Below are positions 8,006-16,394 of a stretch of DNA of 40,630 bases, in pieces; the stretch's first letter is position 1, and every line of letters begins with the position of its first letter. The position numbers and the translations under genes were made by a program. The stretch covers positions 1-40,630 of the forward strand of contig JAUZOQ010000023.1 of assembly GCA_030706385.1 (NCBI GenBank), given 5' to 3'. Origin of the DNA: Bacteroidota bacterium. GTDB lineage: Bacteria; Bacteroidota; Ignavibacteria; Palsa-1295. The notes beneath the pieces were generated by a model. The model ran no database searches. It saw only the letters and a program-made list of their open reading frames with translations, and was not told the DNA's origin.

Positions 8006-8452
8006 ATGTCGCATTCGTACATCTCAATTTATTCTCATCTCGTTTTCAGTACGAAAAATCGAGAAGCATTTCTGACGCCGGTAATTCGGGAAAGGCTTTG
8101 GAGAGTAATGGCTGGAATCATGAAGAATAATGGCATCGATGCCATTACCATCGGCGGCTATGAAGATCATTGCCATGCCTTACTTTCACTTCCATCGACA
8201 ATTCCCATTGCAGAAGCCGCGAAAAAATTGAAAGGGATCTCATCCAAATGGTTATCCGAAGAATACCCGGAATTGAGAAATTTTGAGTGGCAGAAAGGGT
8301 ATGCAGCATTCAGCGTAAGCACATCGCAGCTAAAAAAGGTCATTGCCTATATCAATAATCAAGAAGAGCACCATAAGGCGAAAACATTTCGCGATGAATA
8401 TATCTCCTTTTTGCGCGGGAATAATATTCCGTTTGATGAGAAATATATTTGA
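8006..8452 (+). CDS. IS200-like / REP-associated tyrosine (Y1 HUH) transposase
   Basis: This is a 148-residue single-strand DNA transposase of the Y1 family. The HUH motif is His55-Cys-His57 in GGYEDHCHALLSLP. The catalytic tyrosine is Tyr115 in YINNQEEHH, where Tyr and Gln119 match the Y-x3-Q pair of IS200/IS605 TnpA enzymes. The start MSHSYISIYSHLVFSTKN at 8006 matches the usual family opening; an in-frame TTG at 7964 would only add an atypical leader. No tnpB or left-end hairpin is seen. Instead five tandem palindromic units begin 3 bases after the stop, which suggests a RAYT that acts on REP-like hairpins rather than an autonomous IS. Confidence 0.88.
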   Translation: MSHSYISIYSHLVFSTKNREAFLTPVIRERLWRVMAGIMKNNGIDAITIGGYEDHCHALLSLPSTIPIAEAAKKLKGISSKWLSEEYPELRNFEWQKGYAAFSVSTSQLKKVIAYINNQEEHHKAKTFRDEYISFLRGNNIPFDEKYI

Positions 8453-8455
8453 GAC

Positions 8456-8608
8456 GGTTGCATAGACTCCAAAATTGTTATCCATTCAAAACCGCCCACC
8501 GATAAATTGGTGGGCTAATGTGTTTTCATCCGCCAGAGGCGGATTCTGGAGTCGCCTTCGGCGACGGTATCAAATTAGCCCACGATTTTAATCGTGGGCG
8601 ATGGTGAT
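8456..8608 (+). repeat. REP-like unit 1
   Basis: Unit of 153 bases. Hairpin a is 8494-8515 with a G-T wobble in the inner stem, b is 8528-8544, c is 8551-8565, and d is 8578-8599. It shares its opening (GGTTGCATAGACTCCAAAAT) with unit 2 only. Confidence 0.9.
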
Positions 8609-8760
8609 GGTTGCATAGACTCCAAAATTGTTAATCATTGGACACCGCCCACCATTGAAATGGTGGGTGGTATGTTTCCATCCGCCAGAGGCGGATTCCG
8701 AAGTCGCCTTCGGCGACGATATCAAACTAGCCCACGATTTTAATCGTGGGCGATGGTGAT
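8609..8760 (+). repeat. REP-like unit 2
   Basis: Unit of 152 bases. The inner stem of hairpin a is ATT/AAT here. The right flank of hairpin a is GGTGGTATG instead of GGCTAATATG, which weakens the long-range pairing with hairpin d (8730-8751). Confidence 0.9.
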
Positions 8761-8913
8761 GGTCGGATAGATTCCAGAACTGTTATCCATTCAACACCGC
8801 CCACCAATAAATTGGTGGGCTAATATGTTTTCATCCGCCAGAGGCGGATTCCGTAGTCGCCTTCGGCGACGATGACAAATTAGCCCACGATTTTAATCGT
8901 GGGCGATGGTGAT
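8761..8913 (+). repeat. REP-like unit 3
   Basis: Unit of 153 bases beginning GGTCGGATAGATTCCAGAAC, shared with unit 4. The inner stem of hairpin a is AAT/ATT, pair-preserving compared with units 2 and 4. Hairpin d is 8883-8904. Confidence 0.9.
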
Positions 8914-9066
8914 GGTCGGATAGATTCCAGAACTGTTATCCATTCAACACCGCCCACCATTGAAATGGTGGGCTAATATGTTTTCATCCGCCAGAGGCGG
9001 ATTCCGGAGTCGCCTTCAGCGACGATATCAAACTAGCCCACGATTTTAATCGTGGGCGATGGTGAT
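8914..9066 (+). repeat. REP-like unit 4
   Basis: Unit of 153 bases, closest to unit 3 with about 8 differences by direct comparison. Hairpin c has one mismatch (TTCAGCGAC). Hairpin d is 9036-9057. Confidence 0.9.
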
Positions 9067-9220
9067 GGTTTCATAATTCCCCATATTGTTATCTATCATC
9101 GAACACCGCCCACCATTGAAATAGTGGCTGGTATGTTTTATCCGCCATAGACGGATTCCGGAGTCGACTTCGGCGACGATGCCAAATTAGCCCACGATTT
9201 TAATCGTGGGCGGGCTTTCT
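9067..9220 (+). repeat. REP-like unit 5 (most diverged)
   Basis: This copy has a mismatch in each of hairpins a (AATAGTGG), b (ATAGACGGAT) and c (GTCGACTTC). Hairpin d (9190-9211) is identical to the other copies and is followed by GGGCTTTCTT, so it could act as a weak terminator before groESL. Confidence 0.85.
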
Positions 9221-9263: not shown

Positions 9264-9290
9264 TTAGCACTCGCCTAAGTGGAGTGCTAA
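9264..9290 (+). promoter_or_regulatory. CIRCE operator (HrcA binding site) of groESL
   Basis: TTAGCACTC (9264-9272), 9 bases, then GAGTGCTAA (9282-9290) is a perfect match to the CIRCE inverted repeat. HrcA binds CIRCE and represses groESL until heat or misfolded protein titrates GroEL. It lies 71 bases before the groES ATG. hrcA itself is not in the window, and no clear -7/-33 pair was found beside the operator. Confidence 0.97.
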
Positions 9291-9661: not shown

Positions 9662-11435
<1,774 letters not shown>

Positions 11436-15558: not shown

Positions 15559-16371
15559 ATGAGAGATGAAGAAGCATACATTCTTGGAATCAATAAAGAA
15601 GAGCTTGAACGCTTGCGGTTTCAGCATGGGGTTTGGAAGAAAGTAACGGACGATTTCTTTAATAGGATCGGAGTTGCTAAGGGGTGGAAATGCCTCGATG
15701 TCGGGTCAGGACCCGGCTTCGTTGCCATGGATCTGCGCGAGCGAGTCGGCGAGCAGGGAAGTGTTACGATCCTCGAGCCTGCGCAATACTATATCGATCA
15801 CTTCAAACAGGAATCCGAAAAACGCGGTTGGACGAACATTACTTTCCTCCATGGCACTGCCGAAACGGCCGAACTTCCGAAAGAGCAATTCGATCTCATC
15901 TTCGTGCGCTGGGTAATCGGCTTCGTGCCCGATCCCGAGAAATTCATTGTCAATCTGCTTTCATCGCTCAAGAAAGGCGGAGTGATCGCCATTCAGGATT
16001 ATCTCTATAGCGGATTAGGATTATATCCGAAGGGCGGAGCATTCGATCACGCTCTCGAAATGGTTATTCGTCACTGGGCCGTAAGCGGAGGCGATGCCTT
16101 CGTGGCCGCAAAGATCCCGGCTATTTTTCGCAAACATGGTTTAGAAATTGTCGATTACTCTCCGCACTGCCTTGCCGGTGGCCCCGATAGCGACGTGATC
16201 GAGTGGGCAGATAAGTTCTTCACCAAACACATGCACCTTATGGTGGCAAGCGGCGCAACAACAAAGGAGTTAGGCGATGCCATGCTCGAAGATTGGTACG
16301 CGCACCGGAAAAATCCCGATACAATATTCTGCTCGCCGATCGTAGTCGATATGGCGGGGAGGAAAATGTAA
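15559..16371 (+). CDS. Class I SAM-dependent methyltransferase
   Basis: The 270-residue protein has the SAM-binding motif I LDVGSGPGF (Leu46-Phe54), the acidic end of strand 2 in VTILEPAQ (motif II), TAETAELPKEQFDLIFVRWV (motif IV region) and LLSSLKKGGVIAIQDY (motif VI), so the Rossmann core is complete. The C-terminal 100 residues (YSGLGLYPKGGAFDHALEMVIRHWAVSGGD...) form an alpha-rich cap as in small-molecule methyltransferases. The substrate is unknown. The stop codon lies inside a 31-base AT-rich repeat (16364-16394) that also occurs before groEL, so the last residues may have been set by that insertion. Confidence 0.85.
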   Translation: MRDEEAYILGINKEELERLRFQHGVWKKVTDDFFNRIGVAKGWKCLDVGSGPGFVAMDLRERVGEQGSVTILEPAQYYIDHFKQESEKRGWTNITFLHGTAETAELPKEQFDLIFVRWVIGFVPDPEKFIVNLLSSLKKGGVIAIQDYLYSGLGLYPKGGAFDHALEMVIRHWAVSGGDAFVAAKIPAIFRKHGLEIVDYSPHCLAGGPDSDVIEWADKFFTKHMHLMVASGATTKELGDAMLEDWYAHRKNPDTIFCSPIVVDMAGRKM

Positions 16372-16394
16372 AATTAAAAATGTAAAATGTAAAA
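16364..16394 (-). repeat. 31-base AT-rich repeat, inverted copy of 9753-9783
   Basis: This stretch is the exact reverse complement of 9753-9783 (TTTTAC/ATTTT pattern). It covers the last codons and stop of the methyltransferase gene. Confidence 0.75.

Follow-up and report, generated by a model that had tools for sequence, protein, structure and literature searches.

Few repeats are as common in bacterial genomes as repetitive extragenic palindromic (REP) elements, and to our knowledge only the class 2 REP-associated tyrosine transposases (RAYTs, or TnpA_REP) have so far been tied to them. Insertion sequences (IS) of the IS200/IS605 type carry hairpins at their ends on the same strand. In the RAYT/REP systems described from E. 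coli, Pseudomonas and Stenotrophomonas, whose repeats include bacterial interspersed mosaic elements (BIMEs) and REPINs (PMC6006769, PMC3733652, PMC8266576), tagged palindromes stand in inverted orientation on both sides of a Y1 HUH transposase gene, every such gene is associated with a repeat family of its own, and the repeats form dispersed intergenic copies, inverted pairs and gene-side clusters. Another group of Y1 enzymes, TnpA_Y1 subclass 1.2, was described mainly from Cyanobacteria and Bacteroidetes and scored as being without REPs by Quentin et al. 2018 (PMC6006769), whose automatic REP search required a GT[AG]G tag. Here we analyse a 40,630-nt stretch (the window) of a draft Bacteroidota genome (3.5 Mb, 161 contigs), in which a subclass 1.2 gene is followed by a tandem array of palindromic repeats. 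Taken together, this locus, whose gene has REPs on one side only, and its relatives elsewhere show the above features of RAYT/REP, and it is highly probable that they represent a second kind of REP/transposase system, a counterpart of RAYT/REP that belongs to a different branch of the Y1 family.

The transposase gene (8006..8452, plus strand, ATG at 8006) encodes a protein of 148 aa with the subclass 1.2 signature H55-C-H57, W95-Q96 and Y115-x3-Q119-x2-H122-H123. The original prediction, made from the letters of the sequence, had recognized a Y1 HUH transposase with His55-x-His57 and Tyr115-x3-Gln119. This is borne out by a Pfam Y1_Tnp match (3.6e-28) and by alignments of relatives, where H55, H57, Y115 and Q119 are invariant, the HUH motif being H-C-H. 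The accompanying label, RAYT, has to be abandoned. The protein scores 73.2 bits with the NCBIfam IS200/IS605 model NF033573 (cut-off 55) and 20.2 bits with the REP-associated tyrosine transposase model NF047646 (REP_Tyr_transpos; cut-off 80). All 27 aligned members match the former model, and 24 of the 27 match the latter, at best with an E-value of 5.5e-7. Q119, H122 and H123 are likewise invariant across these members, and the tyrosine motif reads YINNQEEHH, as opposed to Y-x3-NP in RAYTs. Because DHCH, WQ, YINNQEEHH, the length of 148 and the C-terminal extension are those of subclass 1.2, and because the IS200 model is passed and the REP-transposase model failed, the enzyme, as judged from its sequence, is not a RAYT by descent. 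The low NF047646 score and the missing Y-x3-NP also rule out a RAYT/TnpA_REP (class 2) identity.

An AlphaFold (AF2) model of the protein (mean confidence, pLDDT, 92) has the ISDra2 and IS608 TnpA structures as its best PDB matches (E 5e-10 and weaker); E. coli TnpA_REP (4er8) matches at 9e-6 with 15% identity. In this model, helices 119–125 and 128–138 come after the tyrosine helix and form the C-terminal helical extension. The window genome holds two Y1 copies that are 61% identical, the paralog lying at C128. Low, divergent copy number thereby joins Y-x3-Q-x2-HH, WQ, a length of about 148 aa and the C-terminal extension among the subclass 1.2 traits found here. The enzyme has in common with the published subclass (Quentin et al. 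2018) the length, DH[x]H, WQ, YIxNQ-EHH, the C-terminal extension, the low copy number and an occurrence in Bacteroidetes; the published subclass, however, was listed as REP-less, whereas here it is REP-flanked, in about ten phyla.

As had been predicted, the array starts 3 bases after the transposase gene, whose stop codon ends at 8452. It spans 8456..9214 on the plus strand, and Tandem Repeats Finder (TRF) reports it as a single array at 8456-9212 with a period of 153, 4.9 copies and 88% matches. TRF and unit alignment agree with the proposed five units, at 8456..8607, 8608..8760, 8761..8913, 8914..9066 and 9067..9214 on the plus strand; their lengths (about 152 bp for unit 1, 153 bp for units 2, 3 and 4, and 148 bp for unit 5) run from 148 to 153 bp, not from 152 to 154 bp as first thought. 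Each unit contains four inverted repeats with arms of 10 (a), 7 (b), 6 (c) and 10 bp (d), which in unit 1 correspond to main hairpin a (8494-8515), accessory hairpins b (8528-8544) and c (8551-8565) and main hairpin d (8578-8599). The expected four hairpins per unit are therefore present as inverted repeats, although hairpin a has decayed in unit 5, whose REP d is intact, and the tag of a is missing from units 2 and 5.

Accessory hairpin b belongs to main hairpin a, and c belongs to d. REP d lies on the plus strand (8550-8598 in unit 1, then 8702-8750, 8855-8903, 9008-9056 and 9162-9210) and reads accessory c, 11 nt, TTAG, main d. REP a lies on the minus strand (8495-8532 in unit 1, 8800-8837 and 8953-8990) and reads accessory b, 11 nt, TTAG, main a, with the sequence TAGCCCAC-N10-GTGGGC on that strand. 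Since b goes with a and c with d, the 153-bp unit is an inverted, tail-to-tail pair of two-hairpin REPs. The multi-hairpin REP of about 153 bases originally envisaged is thus replaced by a repeated element of about 47 nt with two hairpins.

To test the gene–REP link, the analysis drew on 80 loci of named genomes and on 100 relatives, most loci coming from metagenome-assembled genomes (MAGs). Perfect stems of 8 or more occur at 1.52/kb within 500 bp of subclass 1.2 genes in the 80 loci, compared with 0.148/kb beyond 1.5 kb, an approximately tenfold difference. Among the 59 hairpins nearest to the gene, which had been found without using the tag, 42 have AG at the outer stem foot, facing away from the gene (20/29 upstream, 22/30 downstream), and 2 have it at the inner one (2/29 and 0/30, respectively). 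In 77 of 104 loci, the similarity of the two 250-bp flanks in inverted orientation is above the 99th percentile of controls from the same locus.

Most outward-tagged hairpins have a second, smaller hairpin at a fixed gap before the tag, and the REP is for this reason defined as an element of about 47 nt, consisting of a small accessory hairpin with a three-base loop, 10–12 nt, an NTAG tag and a main hairpin of 8–10 bp. The gap between accessory hairpin and tag is 10–11 nt in 72 of 91 instances, though 3 to 24 were permitted. Accessory hairpin, tag and main hairpin together are 47 times denser near the gene than far from it (1.48/kb versus 0.031/kb). Tags are ATAG (24), TTAG (22), GTAG (16) and others; in general form the tag is NTAG or NCAG. 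In comparison with RAYT/TnpA_REP, the enzyme here is of class 1 with Y-x3-Q-x2-HH instead of class 2 with Y-x3-NP, the REP includes an accessory hairpin in addition, at a constant distance of 10–12 nt, and the tag is not a strict GTAG. The REP alignment displays very strong covariation, which is not used as evidence, its rows having been picked for perfect stems. CGTC-tagged REPs (Di Nocera 2013), described without a known dedicated transposase, are also palindromic repeats that form dimers; membership in this group was rejected on anatomy, a CGTC REP being a single hairpin with a CGTC tag and AT at the stem foot.

A covariance model, R1, was built from 26 REPs, none from the window array and one from the paralog locus of the window genome. 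It finds five of five window copies of REP d (37–43 bits, E 1e-8 to 2e-10) and three of five copies of REP a (19–28 bits). In 68 held-out loci, which contributed no training sequence, R1 yields 76 matches in the 67 kb that lie within 500 bp of subclass 1.2 genes, against 18 in 1.04 Mb elsewhere, a 66-fold difference, and the prevailing arrangement is TAG-hairpin-gene-hairpin-CTA; 58 of the matches near the gene face outward and 18 inward. In unrelated phyla, too, tandem arrays of different sequence stand next to the transposase gene (L085, 72 bp; L125, 95 bp; L097, 107 bp; L115, 145 bp). The system, which the original prediction had placed in this lineage, is present in about ten phyla. Gene and REP-like matches were also seen in two MAGs labelled Patescibacteria (L126) and Methylococcaceae (L089), reflecting either transfer or a binning error.

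Among the 100 relatives, 57 genomes have the gene and 41 of these contain R1 matches; of the 43 genomes lacking it, 11 contain matches (odds ratio 7.5, p 4e-6). Six of the 100 contributed rows to the training set, the genomes are not independent where they are related, and matches per genome are lower bounds. With the window's family left out, the odds ratio is 6.7 (p 5e-5). Co-occurrence of REPs with the transposase, which the original prediction had put forward as a check, is supported by these counts; on the question of whether the units are widespread without the enzyme, which would speak against the link, the same counts give a mixed answer.

Copies that match TAGCCCAC-N10-GTGGGC exactly number 21 in G002, a Kapaibacteriaceae relative from another genus, where several contigs carry them, and 8 in the window genome, all in the array; the pattern is absent from 92 of the 100 genomes, and a reversed control pattern gave 0 hits. 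The complete Planctomycete genome Pan216 contains 36 REP copies (at most one mismatch) over 7.6 Mb, compared with 0 for the control. Many of them form inverted pairs exactly 119 bp apart, some pairs lying inside one local duplicated segment, and a 95-bp array stands beside the transposase gene. Distinct contexts fall outside long open reading frames (ORFs) in 17 of 18 cases in Pan216 (ORF coverage 43%) and in 7 of 10 in G002 (coverage 80%). The pattern expected of REP elements (tagged palindromes of 20–40 bp in many dispersed, mainly intergenic copies) is seen in G002 and Pan216; in its own genome, the window family was found only in the array. The paralog at C128 has a REP family with a different hairpin, comprising 9 copies, all at the paralog locus, and other families of two-hairpin REP are present elsewhere in the window genome. 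Each gene carries its own REP family.

Passing the IS200 model, having a fold closest to the ISDra2 and IS608 TnpA (subclass 1.1), and showing hairpins on both sides of the gene in many relatives are all traits that an ordinary IS200/IS605 element with TnpA only and subterminal hairpins would display, in which case the array would be a local duplication of one end. We regard this explanation as improbable. The hairpins face inward in inverted orientation, with outer-facing tags, unlike the same-strand, direct hairpins of IS200/IS605 ends. In place of a near-identical multicopy gene there are two diverged copies in the window genome. Dispersed gene-less copies outnumber the gene, and Y-x3-Q-x2-HH together with the C-terminal domain sets subclass 1.2 apart from the IS subclass 1.1.

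Several observations weigh against a REP/transposase system of this kind. Neither cleavage nor binding nor transposition was seen. On its upstream side the window gene lacks a REP, and its own flanks fail the inverted-repeat test; its REP family was found in its genome only in the array, and tandem duplication requires no transposase. R1 misses the flanking repeats of many Bacteroidota loci, and 16 of the 57 genomes with the gene have no R1 match among the candidates scored. Conversely, 8 of the 11 matching genomes without a detected gene have three or more matches (at least 57 in G087, at least 37 in G015 and at least 30 in G025). Such genomes yielded only distant or broken Y1 genes, or none; in G015, G084, G087, G073 and G004, which have REPs and no subclass 1.2 gene, the Y1 genes are partial or distant, and their scanned loci carry no REP. 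In the eight genomes with three or more matches, the REPs may be relics after loss of the gene or belong to another Y1 enzyme, or the assemblies may be incomplete; those of G087, G015 and G025, where no intact subclass 1.2 gene was found, are orphans or depend on another enzyme.

The only Rfam family matching the array is RF01687, Acido-Lenti-1. At the window copies it scores 28.9 bits or less, under the gathering score of 37; the match at 8550..8598 (28.9 bits, E 5e-4) is on the minus strand, opposite to the TAG strand of REP d. At the paralog locus of the window genome, RF01687 reaches 54.6 bits, above the cut-off, as it does 35 times in 22 flanking loci of other phyla (11 of the 22 loci). 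Its consensus, consisting of a main hairpin, CTA, a linker of about 11 nt and an accessory hairpin, is the complement of the two-hairpin REP; the family is described as a non-coding RNA, and here it is read as the complement of a DNA element. According to Weinberg et al. 2010 (PMC2864571), Acido-Lenti-1 is probably RNA and not cis-regulatory, Rfam lists it as a candidate small RNA (sRNA), and a 2026 paper (PMC13298647) states that little is known of its function. We found no published link between Acido-Lenti-1 and a transposase in the literature searched, beyond which such papers could exist. The hairpins being REP-like and linked to a Y1 gene, the proposal of an undescribed REP class stands to that extent. 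In Flavobacterium sp. J49, Rfam Flavo-1 RNA (RF01705) matches at L131:10609-10668, 165 bp downstream of a subclass 1.2 gene, and again in the locus at 1124-1205. Flavo-1 opens with UUAG ahead of a stem and could be a further REP class mistaken for RNA; this concerns one locus only and is not claimed.

The hairpins could instead act as RNA, with Acido-Lenti-1 a genuine sRNA or mRNA element (stabiliser, terminator or groESL regulator) and its adjacency to Y1 genes incidental or a result of carriage. Beyond its Rfam status, stems with triloops would fold as RNA too, and the array lies just before a groESL operon under control of CIRCE (controlling inverted repeat of chaperone expression). We nevertheless consider this account unlikely, if marginally less so than an ordinary IS. 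Of the 35 matches, 29 are no more than 600 bp away from a Y1 gene, a 46-fold enrichment in 22 loci that were chosen for the gene. The copies occur in inverted pairs, so that an RNA role would require transcription of both strands. Each genome and its Y1 gene have families particular to them, with high copy numbers in some genomes, and the loci read show no consistent downstream gene. Acido-Lenti-1 is most likely a DNA element spread by the enzyme. We consider it probable, with somewhat less confidence than the existence of the parallel system itself, that a second REP/transposase system arose in the IS200-like Y1 branch, that subclass 1.2 enzymes are responsible for the dispersal of two-hairpin REPs across about ten phyla, and that the sequence described as Acido-Lenti-1 is the strand complementary to the DNA these enzymes use as substrate.

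Downstream of the array, a perfect CIRCE operator (9264-9290; TTAGCACTC-N9-GAGTGCTAA) is followed by groES (9362) and groEL. The gene and REP pair stand at the same CIRCE-groESL site in G000 and G002. In G002, one set of a, b, c and d comes after the orthologous gene, and then the degraded start of a second unit; the accessory b palindrome is kept between the genera by compensatory changes (ATCCGCC/GGCGGAT to ATCGGC/GCCGAT). In G006, a Y1 gene remnant of 20–27 codons with hairpins upstream of CIRCE-groES (L206:463-543) is a decayed copy at the syntenic site. Neither a Y1 gene nor a REP was found at the groESL site of G005 and G004, which are too diverged for empty-site junctions, and the G001 assembly has no groES for an empty-site comparison. 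G005 belongs to the family of the window genome, and its Y1 contig and protein are identical to those of Candidatus Kapaibacterium sp. CRAIB_MAG116, which makes the window's host a relative of Kapaibacterium. The most likely history of the array is that a REP pair of long standing, passed on vertically, was amplified in the window genome. Two short A+T-rich repeats were also noted in the window, CATTTTA x4.7 between groES and groEL (9751-9783) and AAAATGTAAAATGTA x2.2 at 16363-16394.

The inter-unit spacer, from d to a, is homologous to the 3′ flank of the transposase gene, and plain tandem duplication therefore suffices to explain the amplification. This is also what a passive minisatellite would predict, in which palindromic DNA slips downstream of an unrelated, decaying gene whose enzyme no longer acts. 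As in ordinary tandem arrays, the units differ by 5–13% from the query unit and the outer unit is decaying, and the REP family is local. Variable columns over the five units, however, number 20 of 41 in the spacer before a, 7 of 22 in a, 2 of 17 in b, 2 of 15 in c and 0 of 22 in d, so hairpin d is invariant and the spacers are variable. Palindrome b has been maintained in G002 by compensatory change, and arrays with other sequences recur beside the enzyme in the unrelated phyla listed above. A passive minisatellite is in our view very improbable, the least credible of the three alternatives.

For the parallel REP/transposase system, we infer recognition, cleavage and mobility of the REP, as well as the means of its amplification, as follows. 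The single-domain HUH tyrosine nuclease of subclass 1.2 most likely recognises the folded single-stranded REP, and by analogy with IS608, ISDra2 and TnpA_REP (PMC8266576), the NTAG beside the stem may serve as a guide placing the cleavage. Following the same analogy, attack by Tyr115 would produce a 5′-phosphotyrosine intermediate, from which the REP DNA could be passed to a new single-stranded site. The elements would move or multiply as inverted pairs: a pair enclosing the gene (TAG-hairpin-gene-hairpin-CTA) may represent the autonomous form, and gene-less pairs may resemble miniature inverted-repeat transposable elements (MITEs) or REPINs. The window array would stem from an inverted pair on the downstream side of the gene, one that the relative from another genus also has at its groESL site, and tandem amplification would have brought it to five, either by strand transfer next to a copy or by plain slippage or recombination. 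That the accessory hairpin might contact the subclass-specific C-terminal helices is a guess.

If this reading holds, a subclass published as having no REP would possess REPs of its own, and REP domestication would have taken place on both Y1 branches, opening the two to comparison. It would offer an explanation for an orphan Rfam family and cautions against reading Acido-Lenti-1 copies as regulatory RNAs. The defined putative substrate of 47 nt makes the enzyme directly testable in vitro.
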